Assembly (NCBI RefSeq): GCF_029945535.1
Contig: NZ_JAQSCU010000013.1
Span: 187,522-251,521 of the forward strand
DNA from: Methylotenera sp.
Lineage (GTDB): Bacteria > Pseudomonadota > Gammaproteobacteria > Burkholderiales > Methylophilaceae
Reading direction: 5' to 3'
Length of the DNA: 64,000 nt
The stretch's first letter is position 1. Each line of letters opens with the position of its first letter. Below the pieces are notes generated by a model. It saw only the letters and a list, made by a program, of their open reading frames with translations. It made no database searches and was not told the origin of the DNA. Both the position numbers and the translations under genes were made by a program. Below are positions 9,447-17,484 of this stretch, in pieces.

Positions 9447-11042
9447 ATGAATTCAGAAGACTTAAATAAAATTTCCTTATCGTTGAGCAAACGAGCAGAA
9501 AGTAATGATGACGAACATTTAGCTCGAACTTTTGTTTCAGTCGGAAATATTCCAACACTTTTAAGTAACAACGATTCGGCAATTATATTTGGAAGAAGAG
9601 GAACAGGAAAAACTCATTTGTTGTCGTTCATAAATAAGACAATACAAGATAGTGGTTCAGTCGTTATATCTATAGACATGCGAACTATAGGTTCATCTTC
9701 TGGACTTTATGCTGATAGCAGTATTCCTCTACCAGAACGAGCAACTAGGCTTCTTCGAGACACTGCAAATGCTGTATATGACAGAATAATAGAGTCGTAC
9801 ACAAATCCCGGTACACAGAAGTATGGTATAGATATAGTAAAAGCTATTGATAAATTAGCCGATGCCGCCGCAGAAGTTAAGGTTGAAGGTCAAGTTAATA
9901 ATGAGATTCAGGCTATTACCTCGTTGAATGATGAGGCGAATTTTGGAATAGGCATTAAACTCAAAGCTGCCCCGCAACTAGATCTTAATTTAGAAGATAA
10001 ACTTGTTACCACAGAGTCACAAACTACAAAGCGAGCTGTTACTGGTAGGGCAATAGCAAGAATTAATTTTGGTAGTCTCTCTGCCTCTGTTAGTAATATC
10101 GTTGCAAATATGCCTAATAAAAGGCTTTGGCTACTTCTCGATGAGTGGAGTGAAGTTCCTATCGATCTTCAACCATATCTGGCTGACATGATCAGGAGAG
10201 GCTTTTTATCTGTAAGAGGGGTTACTGCAAAATTTGCAGCGATTGAACATAGATCATCGTTTCGTAAGGTAAGTGATGATGGTTTAATGAGTGTTGGAAT
10301 TGAACTCGGGGCAGATGTGTCAACAAGTCTCAACTTAGATGACTATATGGTCTTTGAAAATGATCCGCACGCAGCCAGTGAATTCTTTTCAGAGATGCTA
10401 TTTAGACATATGAAAGCATCGGCAGATAAAGATGGTGTTGAATTCGATTTAAAAAACCGAGCAGAGCTTGTTAACTCTATGTTTACACAAAAAGATGCTT
10501 TTGATGAGTTTGTGAAAGCTTCAGAAGGCGTGCCTCGAGATGCAATCAATATTCTTTCAAAATGTGCGTTAAAAGCGAACAAAGACAAAATTAGTACACC
10601 AACAGTAAGAGACTCTGCAAGAAATTGGTTTATGTCATCAAAACACAATGATGTATCTAGTAGAAATAGTGCATATAAGTTACTTGAATGGATTGTTCAG
10701 GAAGTAATTAAAGGCAGAAGGGCGAGAGGATTTTTGCTGAACGTGAAATCCCGGGACTCATTGATAGACTTTCTGTTTGACAATCGAGTGATTCATCTGA
10801 TTAAGCGAAGTATTTCCTCAAAAGAGGAACCAGGAGAAAAGTTCAATGCTTTTACTCTGGATTATGGATGCTATGTTGAACTAGTTAACTCTTCAGCTGC
10901 ACCTAGGGGGCTTTTTGAGGCAATTGAGGAGGAGGCAAATGGAGCGAATAAATTTATAGATGTGCCGCAAACAGACTACAGATCAATAAGACGAGCAGTT
11001 TTGAATTTGGATGAATTTTATTCAAAAAACTTAACAGTTTAA
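9447..11042 (+). CDS. Orphan P-loop ATPase (ORC/Cdc6- or STAND-like), possible defence gene
   Basis: A 531-residue NTPase not matched to any characterised gene. Walker A is GRRGTGKTH at residues 49-57; Walker B is LLLDEW near residues 229-234. The ATPase core occupies about residues 40-370. The C-terminal 150 residues (KLLEWIVQEV, then LIDFLFDNRVIHLIKRS) resemble a winged-helix or helical tail. The general architecture recalls ORC/Cdc6-type AAA ATPases annotated in bacterial accessory and defence loci, but this is inference. Arginine is mostly AGA/AGG here, while glnS and the flavin reductase use CGN, which points to horizontal acquisition. It sits 33 bases after glnS and ends only 4 bases before the flavin reductase ATG. 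No second effector gene or mobility gene is adjacent. An AAGGTG ribosome binding site precedes the ATG. Confidence 0.75.
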   Translation: MNSEDLNKISLSLSKRAESNDDEHLARTFVSVGNIPTLLSNNDSAIIFGRRGTGKTHLLSFINKTIQDSGSVVISIDMRTIGSSSGLYADSSIPLPERATRLLRDTANAVYDRIIESYTNPGTQKYGIDIVKAIDKLADAAAEVKVEGQVNNEIQAITSLNDEANFGIGIKLKAAPQLDLNLEDKLVTTESQTTKRAVTGRAIARINFGSLSASVSNIVANMPNKRLWLLLDEWSEVPIDLQPYLADMIRRGFLSVRGVTAKFAAIEHRSSFRKVSDDGLMSVGIELGADVSTSLNLDDYMVFENDPHAASEFFSEMLFRHMKASADKDGVEFDLKNRAELVNSMFTQKDAFDEFVKASEGVPRDAINILSKCALKANKDKISTPTVRDSARNWFMSSKHNDVSSRNSAYKLLEWIVQEVIKGRRARGFLLNVKSRDSLIDFLFDNRVIHLIKRSISSKEEPGEKFNAFTLDYGCYVELVNSSAAPRGLFEAIEEEANGANKFIDVPQTDYRSIRRAVLNLDEFYSKNLTV

Positions 11043-11046
11043 TCTG

Positions 11047-11613
11047 ATGATTTCAGTTTCAGTCGATAAATCTAAAGCTTACCGCCTCGTAAACCACGGC
11101 CCCACCATCCTCGTTTCTGCTCGCCACAATGGCAAACAAAACATCATGGCAGCGGCGTGGGCTTGTGCGCTGGATTTTGATCCACCTAAAATCACGGTGG
11201 TGATTGATAAAAGCGCTTACACCCGCGAGTTGATTGAGGCTGCTGGTACATTTGCCATTAACGTGCCATGTGTGGCGCAGGTGGATATTGTGCGCAAAGT
11301 GGGGACGACTTCTGGACGTGAATTGAAGGACACTGACAAATTCGCCGAGTATGGTTTAGAGATTTTTTCTGCGACTGAAATTGATGCGCCTTTGCTAAAA
11401 GGTTGCGTGGCTTGGCTGGAGTGTAAGCTGATCCCAGAGCCGCATAATCAAAATACTTACGATTTATTTATTGCTGAAGTGGTTGCGGCGCATGCAGATG
11501 AGCGTGTTTTCAGTGATAGTCATTGGCATTTTGAAGGTCATGATGAGCTGCGCACCATACATCACATTGCGGGTGGGGCGTTTTTTGCAACGGGCGAGGC
11601 AATTCAGGCTTAG
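11047..11613 (+). CDS. Flavin reductase family protein
   Basis: Predicted FMN-binding split-barrel flavoprotein, 188 residues. The start MISVSVDKSKAYRLVNHGP leads into the FMN-binding strand ILVSARHNGKQNIMAAAW, then PPKITVVIDKSAYTRELI and the loop FAINVP. These are typical of the DIM6/NTAB flavin reductase-like domain. Its ATG lies 4 bases after the ATPase stop with no visible ribosome binding site of its own. It is therefore either translationally coupled to the ATPase or cut from its old leader by the ATPase insertion. The regulator gene follows after 9 bases. Confidence 0.85.
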   Translation: MISVSVDKSKAYRLVNHGPTILVSARHNGKQNIMAAAWACALDFDPPKITVVIDKSAYTRELIEAAGTFAINVPCVAQVDIVRKVGTTSGRELKDTDKFAEYGLEIFSATEIDAPLLKGCVAWLECKLIPEPHNQNTYDLFIAEVVAAHADERVFSDSHWHFEGHDELRTIHHIAGGAFFATGEAIQA

Positions 11614-11622
11614 GCATCCATC

Positions 11623-12369
11623 ATGCAGCAAACACCGCTCCTCATTGCTACTCTTAAAAAAATACTAAAAGCTAATAACGTAACTTACAAAATCTTGGCG
11701 GATAAGCTAGAAATGAGTGAGTCGAGCATTAAGCGTATTTTTGCTGAAGAGAGTTTGTCTTTACAGCGTTTAGAGCAAATTTGCGCGCTGATTAATATAG
11801 ATTTATCTGACCTAGTGCAGATGATGAACCGCGACAAACCGCGCATTAGCGAGCTAACCGAAGAGCAAGAAAAAGTCGCAGCGGCGGACATGCGTTTGCT
11901 AGGCGTAGCTTTTTTGGTGGTGAATGGTTGGGCGTTTGATAATATTCTGACGCGCTACCCAATCAACGCCGCGGACTTGGTGCATTATCTCTTGGTGTTA
12001 GATAAATTACGTGTGATTGATTTAGAGCCTAACAACCGAATTCGTTTGCTGATTTCCCCTAATTTCTCGTGGCGCAAAAATGGGCCGATTCAACGTGCTT
12101 TAAGCCAAACTGTACAAAAAGACTTTATGGAGGGTGATATTGAAAGCGCTGGCGGTCAGCAACAGTTCGTGTCTGGCATGCTATCTGCCGCTTCTCGCGA
12201 TGAGATTTCAAAACACTTAGATCGCTTAAGCTTGTTGTTTAATGAACTTAAACATCAAGATCAACGTTTGCCGTTGAGCCAACGCACAGGCTTTAGCATG
12301 GCCACCACACTGCGGCCGTGGCGTGATGGTTTATTAGAATCCATGATTAAAAAGCACGAAAACCAATAG
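11623..12369 (+). CDS. XRE-family transcriptional regulator
   Basis: 248 residues. The N-terminal helix-turn-helix of the XRE/Cro type spans about residues 6-65 (LADKLEMSESSIKRIF, then LEQICALINIDLSDL). The remaining 180 residues are helical, with no motif I recognise, and are presumably a sensory or dimerisation domain. It lies 9 bases after the flavin reductase, likely in the same transcript. Its target is unknown. A 10-bp inverted repeat follows the stop. Confidence 0.82.
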   Translation: MQQTPLLIATLKKILKANNVTYKILADKLEMSESSIKRIFAEESLSLQRLEQICALINIDLSDLVQMMNRDKPRISELTEEQEKVAAADMRLLGVAFLVVNGWAFDNILTRYPINAADLVHYLLVLDKLRVIDLEPNNRIRLLISPNFSWRKNGPIQRALSQTVQKDFMEGDIESAGGQQQFVSGMLSAASRDEISKHLDRLSLLFNELKHQDQRLPLSQRTGFSMATTLRPWRDGLLESMIKKHENQ

Positions 12370-12440
12370 CTTTAACTCACTTCACTACTTATTTCACCAG
12401 AGCGCGCATCGTGTAGCTCTCCTTTTGGTATCAAATTTCA

Positions 12441-12478
12441 ATACTTTAACTCGCCATCGTTGTGGTTAAAGTATCTTT
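12441..12478 (+). terminator. Probable terminator after the XRE regulator
   Basis: Perfect 10-bp arms ATACTTTAAC / GTTAAAGTAT with a 14-base loop, followed by CTTTTA. The stem is AT-rich and the T-run short, so it may be a weak terminator; it could also be an operator upstream of the CarF homologue. Confidence 0.45.
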
Positions 12479-12531
12479 TAAATAAGCTTCAATCTCCCTC
12501 ATTTAACTGAGTTTTGAATTGGAGTGTTGAA

Positions 12532-13044
12532 ATGCTTATTGCCATTAAGGCCTTATTACTTACGTTGCTGGCTGACTTTGTTTCTGGTTATATTCATTGG
12601 CTAGAAGATGTGTACGCGAAGCCCGGTATGCGTTTTATTCATCAAATTGCAGTGGATAACCAATTGCATCACACGCGTCCACGCGAGTTTCTTAAAAAGA
12701 ACTGGTGGCAGAGTTCGTGGGATATTGTTTTAGCTTGTGCGGTGCTGATTGCAACTGCTTGGTGGTTTAACGTTCTTAGCTGGGAAATTGTGCTGTTTTC
12801 AGTGTTGATTACCAATGCCAACCAAATCCATAAATGGTCGCATCAAAATCACTCAGAAAAACATGCCATTGTGAAATGGTTGCAAACGATGCATATCTTG
12901 CAAGGGCCGCGCCAGCACGGTAAACACCATAGTGGTGAGAAAAATACGCATTATTGCGTAATGACAAACATGTTGAATCCGCTTTTAGAAAGGATACGCT
13001 TTTGGCGTGGGCTGGAAAATTTACTCAGCTTTACTTTAGCTTAA
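12532..13044 (+). CDS. CarF/TMEM189 (PEDS1)-type plasmanylethanolamine desaturase homologue
   Basis: Predicted membrane di-metal desaturase of the Kua/TMEM189/CarF family, whose characterised members introduce the vinyl-ether bond of plasmalogens. I start it at the ATG at 12532, which has GGAG seven bases upstream; an 18-base longer TTG start is less likely. That gives 170 residues. Hydrophobic spans lie near residues 2-16 and 64-82. Histidine and acidic motifs, in order, are DFVSGYIHWLED (15-26), NQLHHTRP (43-50), NANQIHKWSHQNH (95-107), MHILQGPRQHGKHH (120-133) and THYCVMTNMLNPLLERIRFW. These match the family's His-rich layout, including IHKWSH. No ether-lipid synthesis genes are near, so the substrate is an inference. 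Confidence 0.82.
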   Translation: MLIAIKALLLTLLADFVSGYIHWLEDVYAKPGMRFIHQIAVDNQLHHTRPREFLKKNWWQSSWDIVLACAVLIATAWWFNVLSWEIVLFSVLITNANQIHKWSHQNHSEKHAIVKWLQTMHILQGPRQHGKHHSGEKNTHYCVMTNMLNPLLERIRFWRGLENLLSFTLA

Positions 13045-13133: not shown

Positions 13134-13625
13134 ATGAAAAGCAAACAAATACACGTTAAGTCTTTATTAGCCGCTGTATTAATTTCTGTGGCAAGTATGA
13201 GTTTATCCAATAGTGCATTGGCGGATTCATTTCCGTTTAGTGCAACACCAAGTCCTGCAGTTAGTGCTATCAAAGTGGCGCCGACTTCATCGCCACAAAA
13301 GCTGAGCGTTAAGAATGTTGATGTGGATGCGTTTAGCTTTCCATTCTTGCAAGGCGTAGCGCTTACAGCAGAGCAACGAGGTGTGTTTTCACAAATTTTA
13401 AATAAACAAATGCCAGTGATTAGTTCAAATATTGAAACTATTGAATATGCACGTGGTTTGCTACGTGATATGGCGCTAGCAAAAACTTACGATGAAACGA
13501 TTGCCAATATTGCCGCTGATAGTATTGCCAATGGCACTGCTAAGCTAGCGGTATTACAGGCAGAGCGTGAATATCAAGTGTTGGCTTTGTTAACACCAGA
13601 ACAAGTGAGTGAATTAAGAAAGTAA
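13134..13625 (+). CDS. Small periplasmic LTxxQ-motif protein (Spy/CpxP-like)
   Basis: 163 residues with a signal peptide that cleaves after about residue 30 (SNSALA-DSFPF). The mature part is mainly helical. It has LTAEQR near residue 81 and LTPEQV near the C-terminus, with the final sequence SELRK. Paired LTxxQ motifs are the mark of Spy/CpxP-type periplasmic chaperone or stress-sensing proteins. Similarity beyond the motifs is weak. It is monocistronic, with AGGAG before the ATG and a strong terminator behind. The function is only suggested. Confidence 0.65.
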   Translation: MKSKQIHVKSLLAAVLISVASMSLSNSALADSFPFSATPSPAVSAIKVAPTSSPQKLSVKNVDVDAFSFPFLQGVALTAEQRGVFSQILNKQMPVISSNIETIEYARGLLRDMALAKTYDETIANIAADSIANGTAKLAVLQAEREYQVLALLTPEQVSELRK

Positions 13626-13837: not shown

Positions 13838-14938
13838 ATGAAAAAACCTCGTTTACTTCGCCGTAAAAAACATCGTGTAAGTAAAATTGGCTTACCGCCA
13901 GGTGCGCTGGTTTATGTAGGTAATGCCGATACTAAAAACTTAGCCAAACCTAAAGTCAGTAAGATTATCTATGATGCTAGTGGTTTGGTTGAATGTGAGT
14001 TATCGAGTGATGACCTCACCAACTTTAAACGCGATGACACCAAGAAGGTCTGGCTCAATATACATGGCGTACATGATGCGGCGTTGATTAAGCAAGTGGG
14101 CGACTTGTTTCATTTGCATCCCTTAGTGATTGAAGACATCCTTAACACCGAGCAACGCCCGAAAATTGATGAATTTGATGAGTATATTTTTTTAGAAACG
14201 CGGCTGTTTTATTATCATGCAGAGAGCATGTCGACTAGCTCTGAGCAAATTAGCTTGGTGCTAGGGCATAACTTTCTACTGACATTCCAAGAGCGCTCAA
14301 CGGGCGCATTTGAGCCCATACGTGAGCGTTTACGCGCAACCCGTGCGCCGATTCGAGATTTAGGTGTGGATTATCTGGCCTATGCTTTGTTGGATAGCAT
14401 AGTCGATCGCTATTTCAGTGTGTTGGAAGAAGTGAGTGACGCGAGCGAAATTTTAGAGGAGCAGCTTTTTAAAAGCCCAACGAATGCAGAGCTGCACAGC
14501 ATTCACCAACTCAAACATTCCAGCATTGAATTGCGCCGCGCGGTATGGCCATTGCGTGAGGTGATTAACAGTTTAACTCGCAATGAAAAAGGCTTTTTTA
14601 AGCCTGCCACCATGCCGTATTTGCGGGATGTTTACGACCATACCGTCAATTTCATTGAGTCGCTAGAGTCGATACGAGACACTTTGAGCGGCATGATGGA
14701 TATCTACATGGCAAGTGTGAGTCAGCGTGTTAACTTAGAACTTCGCGCCTTAACCGTAGTGGCCATGCTGTTTATGCCCGCTACCTTGATTGCAGGTATT
14801 TTTGGCATGAACTTTAGGCATATGCCTTGGACTGACCATGACAATGGTTTTTGGTATGCCCTTGCCATTATGACGGGTATTGCGCTAGTGATGATTTTGA
14901 TATTCTGGCGCAGGCAGTGGTTGAGTAGTAAGTCCTAA
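13838..14938 (+). CDS. corA: CorA-type magnesium/cobalt transporter
   Basis: Inner-membrane divalent cation channel, 366 residues. A large cytoplasmic N-terminal domain contains VWLNIHGVHD and HPLVIEDILNTEQRPK, typical of CorA. Two C-terminal membrane helices follow. The first ends in the selectivity motif GMN (IFGMNFRHMPW, near residue 323) and the second lies around residues 340-358. The protein ends with a short basic tail. It is convergent with msrA, and only a weak hairpin lies between. Confidence 0.95.
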   Translation: MKKPRLLRRKKHRVSKIGLPPGALVYVGNADTKNLAKPKVSKIIYDASGLVECELSSDDLTNFKRDDTKKVWLNIHGVHDAALIKQVGDLFHLHPLVIEDILNTEQRPKIDEFDEYIFLETRLFYYHAESMSTSSEQISLVLGHNFLLTFQERSTGAFEPIRERLRATRAPIRDLGVDYLAYALLDSIVDRYFSVLEEVSDASEILEEQLFKSPTNAELHSIHQLKHSSIELRRAVWPLREVINSLTRNEKGFFKPATMPYLRDVYDHTVNFIESLESIRDTLSGMMDIYMASVSQRVNLELRALTVVAMLFMPATLIAGIFGMNFRHMPWTDHDNGFWYALAIMTGIALVMILIFWRRQWLSSKS

Positions 14939-15774: not shown

Positions 15775-16446
15775 ATGCAAAAACCATTGTCACTCATCGG
15801 GTTAGCAATATTATCCTTAATCACAGTTCAGGCAAATGCCGCGGTGTTAATTACTGAAGTCGCGCCTTGGGGTAGTGGTAATGCCCCTTATGCTACTGAC
15901 TGGTTTGAACTCACCAACACAGGCTCTTCTGTGGTGAATATTTCTGGCTGGAAAATGGACGATAACTCTAACTCTTACGCTTCGGCTACTAGCCTTACAG
16001 GCATTACCAGCATTGGTGCTGGTGAATCAGTCATTTTTACAGAGAACGCTGCTAATGCTAGCTTTCTAAGTACTTGGTTTGGTACAAATATACCTGCAAG
16101 TTTGCAAATTGGTAGCTATACAGGTTCTGGTGTTGGTTTAAGCGCTTCAGCTGATGCTGTGAATATTTATAACGCTAGCGGTGTGTTACAAGCCAATGTC
16201 ACCTTTGCTGCATCTGATGCGATTGCGCCGTATCAAACTTTTGACAATGCTGCGGGCTTGAACAACGCTGCAATTTCTACCTTAAGCGTGGTGGGTGTAA
16301 ACGGTGCGTTTGTAGCGTCAAACGATGTGAGTGAAATCGGATCACCAGGCAAAATTGCAGCAGCCGTGCCTGAGGCCGACTCTTACGCCATGTTGTTGGT
16401 TGGTCTTGGCTTAATGGGTTTTATTTCACGTAGACGTAAAGGCTAA
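15775..16446 (+). CDS. PEP-CTERM protein with a lamin-tail-like domain
   Basis: Exported protein of 223 residues. The signal peptide is at residues 1-22 (ITVQANA-A). The mature N-terminal part LITEVAPW...TDWFELTNTGSS...ISGWKMDD has the pattern of lamin-tail (LTD) beta-sandwich domains. The C-terminus is a sorting tail: VPEADSYAMLLVGLGLMGF followed by RRRK. It is of the PEP-CTERM kind recognised by exosortase, but with PEA in place of Pro-Glu-Pro. It is six bases upstream of a second PEP-CTERM gene, so the two are probably co-expressed and placed in the envelope or matrix. No exosortase gene lies in the window. Confidence 0.82.
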   Translation: MQKPLSLIGLAILSLITVQANAAVLITEVAPWGSGNAPYATDWFELTNTGSSVVNISGWKMDDNSNSYASATSLTGITSIGAGESVIFTENAANASFLSTWFGTNIPASLQIGSYTGSGVGLSASADAVNIYNASGVLQANVTFAASDAIAPYQTFDNAAGLNNAAISTLSVVGVNGAFVASNDVSEIGSPGKIAAAVPEADSYAMLLVGLGLMGFISRRRKG

Positions 16447-16452
16447 TTTATC

Positions 16453-17484
16453 ATGAAAATATCACAAGTTATTTTTGCGCTTGCAGCTACTTTTTCTGTC
16501 TCTGCGCAGGCTGCAAGCTCCATCAATTTAGCTAATTACAGTGTAAGTGGTACATATGCACTCGATATTTTAGGTGGTGTAGGCGGGTCAATTTCTGGCC
16601 TTGAAGGTTCTGCAATCACTTATGCTCAAGATCGCAGCTCACTTTTCTTCGTTGGTGATGAAGGCACTGGTGTTATCGAGATTTCGAAAACGGGCGCAAC
16701 GCTTGGCAATAACTTCTTCGATTGGACAGGTACTGGCAGCACCAAGCATGATACTGAGGGGCTAACGTACTTAGGTAATGGTCAATTAGTTGTAGGCGAA
16801 GAGCGTTTGCAAGACGCTTATAGCTTTAGTTATGTGAATGGTGGAACGGTTACACTAAAAAATAACTTCGTGTCTATGAGCAATACCGCGGTTGGCAATA
16901 ACGGCATGGAAGGTATTAGCTACGACTCACGTAACGGCAGTTTTGTGACGATTAAACAACAATCTCCAGAGGATGTTCTTTCTGGAAACCTGACTTTTGC
17001 TGCTGCAACAGGTATTCCACCAAGCACTTCTGGTGATGGGTCATCACCAGCTGGCGGTGGTACTTCAACGGTGACTAATTTGTTTAACCCTGCTTTATTG
17101 GGTTTATCAAGTCTATCTGACGTGCAAACCCTATCAGCAGTGAGTGCACTTTCTGGAACATCAGGTGCGGACAATTTACTTTTCCTGAGTTTAGGTTCAA
17201 AAAAACTTGTTGAAACTGACCGTTTGGGCAATATATTAAGTAGCTTTGATCTTTCAACGGTCTTGCCGCACAATGCCATTGAAGGCGTGACTATTGACGA
17301 AAATGGTACGATCTATCTAGTGGCTGAGCAAGTGCAAGATGCAACAGCACTGGCTGGTGAGAAGTCACAGCTGATTGTACTCACCTCTACCGCACCAGTG
17401 CCGGAGCCAGAAACATACGGCATGCTTTTGGTTGGATTGGGGATTATGGGCGCAGTAGCTCGTCGTAAAAATAAACAAGCTTAA
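16453..17484 (+). CDS. PEP-CTERM protein with an SdiA-regulated/phytase-like beta-propeller
   Basis: 343 residues. The signal peptide ends near residue 20 (VSAQA-A). The body shows propeller-like repeats: GLEGSAITYAQDRSSLFFVGD, TEGLTYLGNGQLVVGEERLQ, MEGISYDSRNGSF and IEGVTIDENGTIYLVAEQ. These recall the YjiK/SdiA-regulated esterase-like or phytase-like families. The C-terminus VPEPETYGMLLVGLGIMG plus RRKNK is a classical PEP-CTERM sorting signal. It is the second gene of the pair, followed by a strong terminator. The enzymatic activity is unknown. Confidence 0.82.
   Translation: MKISQVIFALAATFSVSAQAASSINLANYSVSGTYALDILGGVGGSISGLEGSAITYAQDRSSLFFVGDEGTGVIEISKTGATLGNNFFDWTGTGSTKHDTEGLTYLGNGQLVVGEERLQDAYSFSYVNGGTVTLKNNFVSMSNTAVGNNGMEGISYDSRNGSFVTIKQQSPEDVLSGNLTFAAATGIPPSTSGDGSSPAGGGTSTVTNLFNPALLGLSSLSDVQTLSAVSALSGTSGADNLLFLSLGSKKLVETDRLGNILSSFDLSTVLPHNAIEGVTIDENGTIYLVAEQVQDATALAGEKSQLIVLTSTAPVPEPETYGMLLVGLGIMGAVARRKNKQA

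Follow-up and report, generated by a model that had tools for sequence, protein, structure and literature searches.

A short predicted lipid desaturase of the family PF10520 in Methylotenera, probably not of the plasmalogen type, is encoded in an insertion next to an XRE-type regulator and a conserved palindrome

The window, i.e., the whole 64-kb stretch of Methylotenera DNA that was analysed, contains three consecutive genes encoding an XRE-type regulator, a predicted membrane di-iron enzyme of the family PF10520 (Lipid_desat) and a small CpxP/Spy-like protein, and these genes lie between the genes of a flavin-reductase-domain protein (11047–11613, + strand) and a CorA-family Mg2+ transporter (13838–14938, + strand). 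The two flanking genes form the left and right borders of an insertion and are not counted in the module. The XRE-type (HTH_26) regulator (11623–12369, + strand, 248 aa), which is found together with the desaturase in this genus, is the predicted binder of an operator-like palindrome, GTATCAAATTTCAATAC, located at 12428–12444, 87 bp before the desaturase ATG. The desaturase ORF (12532–13044, + strand), assigned using Pfam, a histidine alignment and an AF2 model, runs from ATG to TAA and encodes 170 aa; a candidate ribosome-binding site, GGAG, is present at 12521–12524 ahead of this ATG, and an alternative in-frame TTG at 12514 would yield a frame of 176 residues. The CpxP/Spy-like gene (13134–13625, + strand), whose model matches are far below the cut-offs, is found 3′ of the desaturase gene in the window and in loci L003 and L004 and is missing from this position in L005. 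Further to the right, two proteins encoded at 15775–16446 and 16453–17484 (both + strand) carry what we take from the translation to be a PEP-CTERM-like tail.

The Pfam search gave the desaturase 117.4 bits with PF10520 (cut-off 26.4), and all the motifs listed in the first-pass annotation (HW-ED, NQLHH, IHKWSH, QHGKHH and THYC), which had been attributed to the Kua/TMEM189/CarF family, are present as HWLED (residues 22–26), NQLHH (43–47), IHKWSH (99–104), QHGKHH (128–133) and THYC (139–142), in agreement with this family. The predicted metal ligands are H22, H46, H47, H100, H104, H129, H132 and H133, accompanied by D26, an aspartate of the essential type. Three further genomes of this genus retain the gene, with 90–99% identity over 166 residues. 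Two of the same-genus genomes match two named Methylotenera MAGs exactly in the desaturase, in line with a Methylotenera-like host; the dN/dS values in the three pairs composed of the window, L004 and L005 are 0.059–0.088, indicating purifying selection. The ORF is not a chance one, because its frame is conserved in three congeneric genomes and the dN/dS is low; the desaturase is a real PF10520 member under purifying selection. A second PF10520 match in the same genome (C5:1328–1507, 21.1 bits, two stops) lies below the cut-off and was rejected as spurious, and similar sub-cut-off matches in G084 and L008 were set aside for the same reason.

Within the bacterial family, 4 of 150 genomes, all of one genus, encode a PF10520 protein scoring over the cut-off; the figures are 2 of 274 genomes for the class and 5 of 398 for the phylum, both including the window. 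Scanning species genomes for two peptide patterns revealed 138 relatives of the desaturase; the 80 that were kept include representatives of Pseudomonadota (Burkholderiales, Moraxellaceae), Verrucomicrobiota, Planctomycetota, Gemmatimonadota, Acidobacteriota and one MAG labelled Bacteroidota. The family alignment comprised 92 rows from 95 loci (L002, L006 and L008 gave none), and its close-subfamily core contained 84 rows (82 distinct), with eight long-branch rows left out. All eight histidines are intact in 81 of the 82 non-truncated rows of this close subfamily, the exception, L024, having Asn at position 46; the window protein itself has the full set of eight His and the Asp. A long N-terminal fusion seen in L057 and L081 was discarded as an artefact of over-long ORFs. 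In a quick tree, a single branch separates the 46 Verrucomicrobiota rows from the rest, and the Methylotenera rows fall together with an Oceanospirillales MAG. Judging from these comparisons, the window protein belongs to a short PF10520 subfamily spread over several bacterial phyla, and no account of its subfamily, marked by Asn at position 43 (N43), was found in the literature searched (subscription papers and preprints were outside its scope). Further relatives are found on an Erythrobacter phage, an uncultured 595-kb phage and a Legionella lytica plasmid, and scans of viral contigs with the desaturase protein and with alignment A1 showed no relative. The protein of the Erythrobacter phage vB_EliS-L02 (L009, 2337–2873) has 178 residues, is PF10520-like, is annotated as hypothetical and is encoded between phoH and the portal gene.

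A comparison with 18 congener loci without the desaturase, found through the CorA gene (L160–L177, three of them cut short), clarifies the position of the module. The flavin-reductase gene adjoins CorA in six of these 18 loci (L161, L167 and L170–L173), and none of the 18 contains a match to XRE or the desaturase; so the desaturase and the XRE regulator sit in an insertion that congeners lack. The four genomes with the desaturase form one clade, which means one gain or loss and not four. The flavin reductase had been considered as an electron donor, and this candidate was dropped: its gene occurs without the desaturase in congeners, and among the neighbour clusters listed it recurs beside the desaturase only in the four Methylotenera rows. 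A P-loop ATPase encoded at 9447–11042 (+ strand), between the GlnRS and flavin-reductase genes, resembles ORC-CDC6-like proteins (44.1 bits) and the Sll1717 family (52.6 of 75 bits); it looks like a second, separate insertion, because GlnRS abuts the flavin reductase directly in the congeners L170 and L171, and it is possibly defence-related.

The neighbours of the desaturase were compared in 90 of the 92 alignment rows (all but L001 and L003). An XRE homologue is matched in 16 of the 90 loci and is adjacent and divergent in 11 of them; the four rows from Methylotenera, which comprise two identical pairs, have XRE upstream on the same strand as the desaturase. Within the bacterial family, XRE was found in 5 of 150 genomes, namely all four with the desaturase and G083. 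A LysR-like regulator matches 24 of the 90 loci, being directly upstream in 22; the Verrucomicrobiota loci with a divergent upstream neighbour that we presume from its sequence to be LysR-like, and with no XRE, are L025, L027, L030, L034, L035, L039, L042–L048, L050–L052, L055, L074, L075, L083, L085 and L088. Four Variovorax loci (L037, L040, L041 and L066) have, next 3′ of the desaturase and on the same strand, a gene for a GTPase that we take from the start of its sequence to be COG0523/CobW-like, possibly a metal chaperone.

The site at 12428–12444 is the sole exact GTATYN7RATAC sequence within the window. In the XRE/desaturase gaps the palindrome is exact in 10 of 14 loci and present with at most one mismatch in all 14, the pattern having been derived from these same 14 loci, several of which are close relatives; the background counts were 0 of 664 windows (exact) and 11 of 664 (at most one mismatch). 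It is located 82–112 bp before the desaturase start in 13 of the 14 gaps, and in L018, where the XRE gene is 2.9 kb from the desaturase, the exact palindrome is still ahead of the latter. Upstream of XRE genes at 30 loci that were not used for the derivation, the exact palindrome occurs in 9, compared with 2 of 365 background windows (p 1.2e-9), and the exact or one-mismatch form occurs in 16, compared with 14 of 365. Where XRE is not a neighbour of the desaturase (74 loci), the palindrome is present upstream in the exact form once and with one mismatch in seven cases. The window's own genome has 26 exact sites, and a reversed control gave nine; the palindrome alone defines no regulon, because 12 of the 15 sites that were read (of the 26) fall inside ORFs. 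A Foldseek search of the PDB with the XRE model (mean pLDDT 82.7) yielded nothing at E ≤ 0.001. A perfect inverted repeat at 12441–12474, ATACTTTAAC-N14-GTTAAAGTAT, is not kept in L004 or L005 and was rejected. The conservation of the palindrome suggests that the XRE-type regulator would control the desaturase through it.

Regulators of this family are also found at loci with other lipid genes. XRE was detected in 56 of 369 class genomes, and about 1.5 kb on each side was read for 30 XRE loci, comprising 29 of these 56 genomes and a locus of another genus of the same family (L109, genome G083). The genes lplT or aas were found near XRE in 13 of the 30: an LplT-like gene is divergent beside XRE in seven (L111, L113, L115, L117, L121, L123 and L124), and six others have an Aas-like gene in the orientation of XRE, at most 1.2 kb downstream of it (L114, L120, L126, L131, L133 and L136). 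All seven LplT-like genes, clipped by the locus end, have as best match PRK08633, a fused acyl-ACP-phospholipid O-acyltransferase, in its LplT half, with 384–529 bits (full-length cut-off 1221), and two Aas-like genes match PRK06814 with 427 and 567 of 1349 bits. A PF04116 fatty-acid hydroxylase was found near XRE in one of the 30 loci: at L109 its gene (581–1336, – strand) faces XRE and an exact palindrome, with no desaturase, and its best model is OlsE, with 60.7 of 475 bits. Pfam confirmed PspA/IM30 proteins near XRE at L120 and L138. The remaining 16 loci contain no lplT, aas or hydroxylase gene within the distance read. The available part of PMC11416262 describes LplT as flipping lysophospholipid inward and Aas as re-acylating it.

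The desaturase itself has the same partners in a minority of the 90 loci. An LplT-like gene follows it by 13–55 bp on the same strand in seven (L038, L056, L057, L058, L060, L062 and L077), and an aas-like gene comes next at the same spacing and on the same strand in two more (L079 and L089). The LplT-like protein of L058 scores 203.4 of 297 bits with LplT; the partner in L038 is a fused LplT-Aas protein clipped by the contig end (PRK06814, 1182 of 1349 bits). The gammaproteobacterial locus L038, which belongs to a clade separate from the Verrucomicrobiota cases, combines the desaturase–LplT/Aas pair with the XRE gene and the palindrome. The window's genome contains Aas and LplT homologues (45–46% identity) on another contig and not beside the desaturase. 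The LplT/Aas literature searched, including the available part of PMC11416262, mentions no link to a desaturase, and the literature searched (subscription papers and preprints being outside its scope) contained no paper on the association of the regulator, the palindrome and lplT-aas. A paper on Methylobacter and Methylotenera lipids (PMC11844350), in its available part, covers quinones and hopanoids and has no bearing on the desaturase.

The histidine spacing inside each motif is the same in the window desaturase as in mouse PEDS1, the enzyme that turns the sn-1 ether chain into a vinyl ether. According to the available parts of two studies, mouse PEDS1 requires His 96, 121, 122, 187, 191, 215, 218 and 219 and Asp 100, and two further residues, His 131 and Phe 118, account for over 90% of its activity (PMC8960569; PMC9131029); 6% of the activity is left in the F118 mutant and about 7% is retained by H131A (PMC8960569). 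This ninth histidine, corresponding to H113 of CarF, is described as necessary in true CarF/PEDS1 proteins, and the tested plant and alphaproteobacterial homologues without it failed to replace CarF (PMC9131029). Residue equivalences were set by the published PEDS1/CarF numbering, assuming no gap between the HH pair and the ninth-His position. By this numbering D26, four residues after the first His, is equivalent to mouse D100 and is Asp in 84 of 84 close relatives; the ninth-His position, nine after the HH pair, is occupied by K56, so the window desaturase lacks this CarF/PEDS1 feature, and the close relatives have there Lys (29), Asn (22), Leu (18), Arg (11) or His (4). The F118 position, three before the HH pair, is N43, and Asn is invariant in all 84. 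A short form from a genome of the same phylum (L013), 41% identical to the window desaturase, has N43 and G56. The first metal His is residue 22, compared with 96 in PEDS1, so about 74 N-terminal residues, including the first helix, have no counterpart. The NCBIfam CarF equivalog NF045946 gave 63.7 bits (1.7e-17), far below its cut-off of 500. On these grounds the window desaturase is probably not of the plasmalogen type and would not be a plasmanylethanolamine desaturase; if residues 43 and 56 are read correctly, calling its close relatives plasmalogen enzymes would be wrong. Two other PF10520 homologues, encoded on the uncultured 595-kb phage LR756511.1 (L010, 3959–4417) and on the Legionella lytica plasmid (L011, 3782–4519), have all 11 PEDS1-type residues (eight His, the ninth His, Asp and Phe) and score 90.5 and 37.8 of 500 bits, respectively, with the CarF model.

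The explanation that we favour, with confidence evenly divided between its being right and wrong, is that the protein is an O2-dependent di-iron enzyme that desaturates ester phospholipids under XRE control, in a membrane-remodelling/repair response, and is not a plasmanylethanolamine desaturase. An integral-membrane di-iron centre would activate O2, and two hydrogens would be removed from one acyl chain of PE or PG, both ordinary ester-linked glycerophospholipids, close to the glycerol; this position is proposed because both characterised cousins, PEDS1 and FAD4, act near the glycerol linkage of intact phospholipids. The reaction would be a desaturation rather than a hydroxylation. The XRE-type regulator encoded alongside would act through GTATY-N7-RATAC, switching the desaturase on or off with the membrane state, and the desaturase may represent one exchangeable output of the response, other outputs including LplT and Aas. 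The family, the histidine set, the missing PEDS1 residues, the purifying selection, the conservation of the palindrome, the gene associations and the insertion site were computed; the ester-phospholipid substrate and the metal centre are predicted. The reading is weakened because LplT/Aas adjoins the desaturase in only 9 of 90 loci and not at the window's gene, because Verrucomicrobia have a LysR neighbour and not XRE, and because the closest fold found belongs to a hydroxylase and not to a desaturase.

In plants, FAD4 places a trans delta-3 bond in the sn-2 chain of PG. That the window protein is FAD4-like, giving the sn-2 chain of phosphatidylglycerol a trans double bond at carbon 3, appears doubtful to us: the two share the family and the missing ninth histidine, and an ester phospholipid substrate would suit the LplT/Aas links, but the phenylalanine F118 of PEDS1, which is conserved in FAD4 as well (PMC8960569), is replaced by Asn43, and the protein is hence not simply a bacterial FAD4.

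The structural comparisons bear on another explanation, that the gene product is instead a phospholipid fatty-acid hydroxylase. The AF2 model of the desaturase has a mean pLDDT of 96.1 and a pTM of 0.89. VIA-align found the Scs7p fatty-acid hydroxylase domain (4zr0/4zr1) as the closest solved fold, with a Z-score of 6.8 over 140–142 residues and the next entry at 2.9, a range in which the tool, below Z 8, warns of common arrangements; Foldseek retrieved nothing from the PDB at E ≤ 0.001 (E above 1), and a sequence search of solved structures revealed no credible relative. In a library of viral models, a Harvfovirus lipid-desaturase-domain protein matches with a TM-score of 0.77. In addition to the Scs7p match, the hydroxylase explanation can draw on a PF04116 (FA_hydroxylase) score of 22.7 bits, below the cut-off of 31, and on the PF04116 protein that the same regulator and palindrome face in L109. 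The fold, however, is common to both classes, so the match to it does not decide between them, PF10520 scores 117.4 bits against the 22.7 bits of PF04116, and the characterised PF10520 enzymes are desaturases, as far as the available parts of the two PEDS1 studies show (PMC9131029, PMC8960569); we regard this explanation as unlikely.

That the protein is a true plasmanylethanolamine desaturase (CarF/PEDS1), acting on alkyl-ether precursors that are imported or are products of genes elsewhere in the genome, seems very improbable. It does have the eight universal histidines, the essential Asp and the NF045946 match at 1.7e-17, and the activity of about 7% kept by mouse H131A implies that loss of the ninth His is not strictly fatal (PMC8960569, available part). 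Against this stand K56 and the invariant Asn43, the NF045946 score of 63.7 with a 500-bit cut-off, the absent N-terminal helix, the failure of the plant and alphaproteobacterial homologues to replace CarF (PMC9131029, available part) and the gene content of the genome. The first-pass annotation had stated that no ether-lipid synthase is nearby, which is true, and had proposed a search for alkyl-DHAP synthase or ElbD-type genes. This search, conducted in the window's own genome (3.0 Mb, 99.99% complete) with PF02913, PF07993 and PF09989, extends the statement genome-wide for these three families: with two of the six PF07993 matches read, no AGPS-, ElbD/FAR- or PlsA-type gene was found. PF02913 matched two proteins, a GlcD-like protein of 453 residues (best model TIGR00387, 430.9 bits, below the 567.9 cut-off) and a frame of 1304 residues whose matches are GlcD/YdiJ-like; PF07993 matched six places, and both of those read are epimerase-like; PF09989 (DUF2229), which we take to mark the anaerobic plasmalogen synthase, is absent. 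Thus, of the CarF-type assignment, the family and the di-iron, O2-dependent chemistry fit the data, and the plasmalogen or vinyl-ether role is disfavoured by K56, N43, the lacking N-terminal helix, the low NF045946 score and the lack of ether-lipid genes by the three families; of the two alternatives offered originally, lipids made by genes elsewhere or another substrate, the latter is the better.

The suggestion that the desaturase is carried along by a mobile insertion and has no function in the lipids of the host, prompted by its presence in just 4 of 150 family genomes and its absence from the same site in congeners, can hardly be sustained in view of the dN/dS of 0.059–0.088 in three species pairs, the complete His set and the palindrome retained ahead of the gene.

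The reading of an XRE-controlled desaturase of ester phospholipids can be taken further, although only tentatively, and we would sooner doubt this extension than rely on it. Besides PEDS1 and FAD4, PF10520 may have in the N43 subfamily a third functional class, whose members desaturate intact ester phospholipids near the glycerol. Their activity would be one inducible response to membrane or lysophospholipid damage, sensed by the XRE-type regulator, and at other loci this sensor would act via one conserved operator on LplT, Aas, a fatty-acid hydroxylase or a PspA-like protein. If so, there would be an unrecognised bacterial membrane-repair lipid together with its regulatory circuit; the XRE regulator and the palindrome offer a direct experimental handle on the regulon and the lipid product. 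What is new here is the desaturase/XRE insertion, the palindrome and the association of the regulator with lplT/aas.

Among the known systems, the LplT-Aas system recurs beside regulators of the XRE family, and two lineages have it beside the desaturase as well; it is not itself a desaturase system. Scs7p and FA_hydroxylase (PF04116) provide the closest solved fold but differ in having only 8% identity, a sub-cut-off family score and hydroxylase chemistry. The alphaproteobacterial CarF-like proteins (the Bradyrhizobium homologue), compared by their description in the available part of PMC9131029 only, likewise lack the ninth His and group with plants, not with CarF. Plant FAD4 resembles the window desaturase in the PF10520 domain, the eight His and the lack of the ninth (K56 here), but it has the conserved Phe common to FAD4 and PEDS1 in place of N43, and the window protein is bacterial. 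CarF/TMEM189/PEDS1 proteins share with it PF10520, the eight His in the same local spacing, the Asp after the first His and the membrane location, and are distinguished from this 170-aa protein, which scores 63.7 of 500 bits with NF045946, by the N-terminal helix, the ninth His and F118. Judged by its residues, the window desaturase fails three tested CarF/PEDS1 features and one FAD4 feature, and would work like a PF10520 lipid desaturase.
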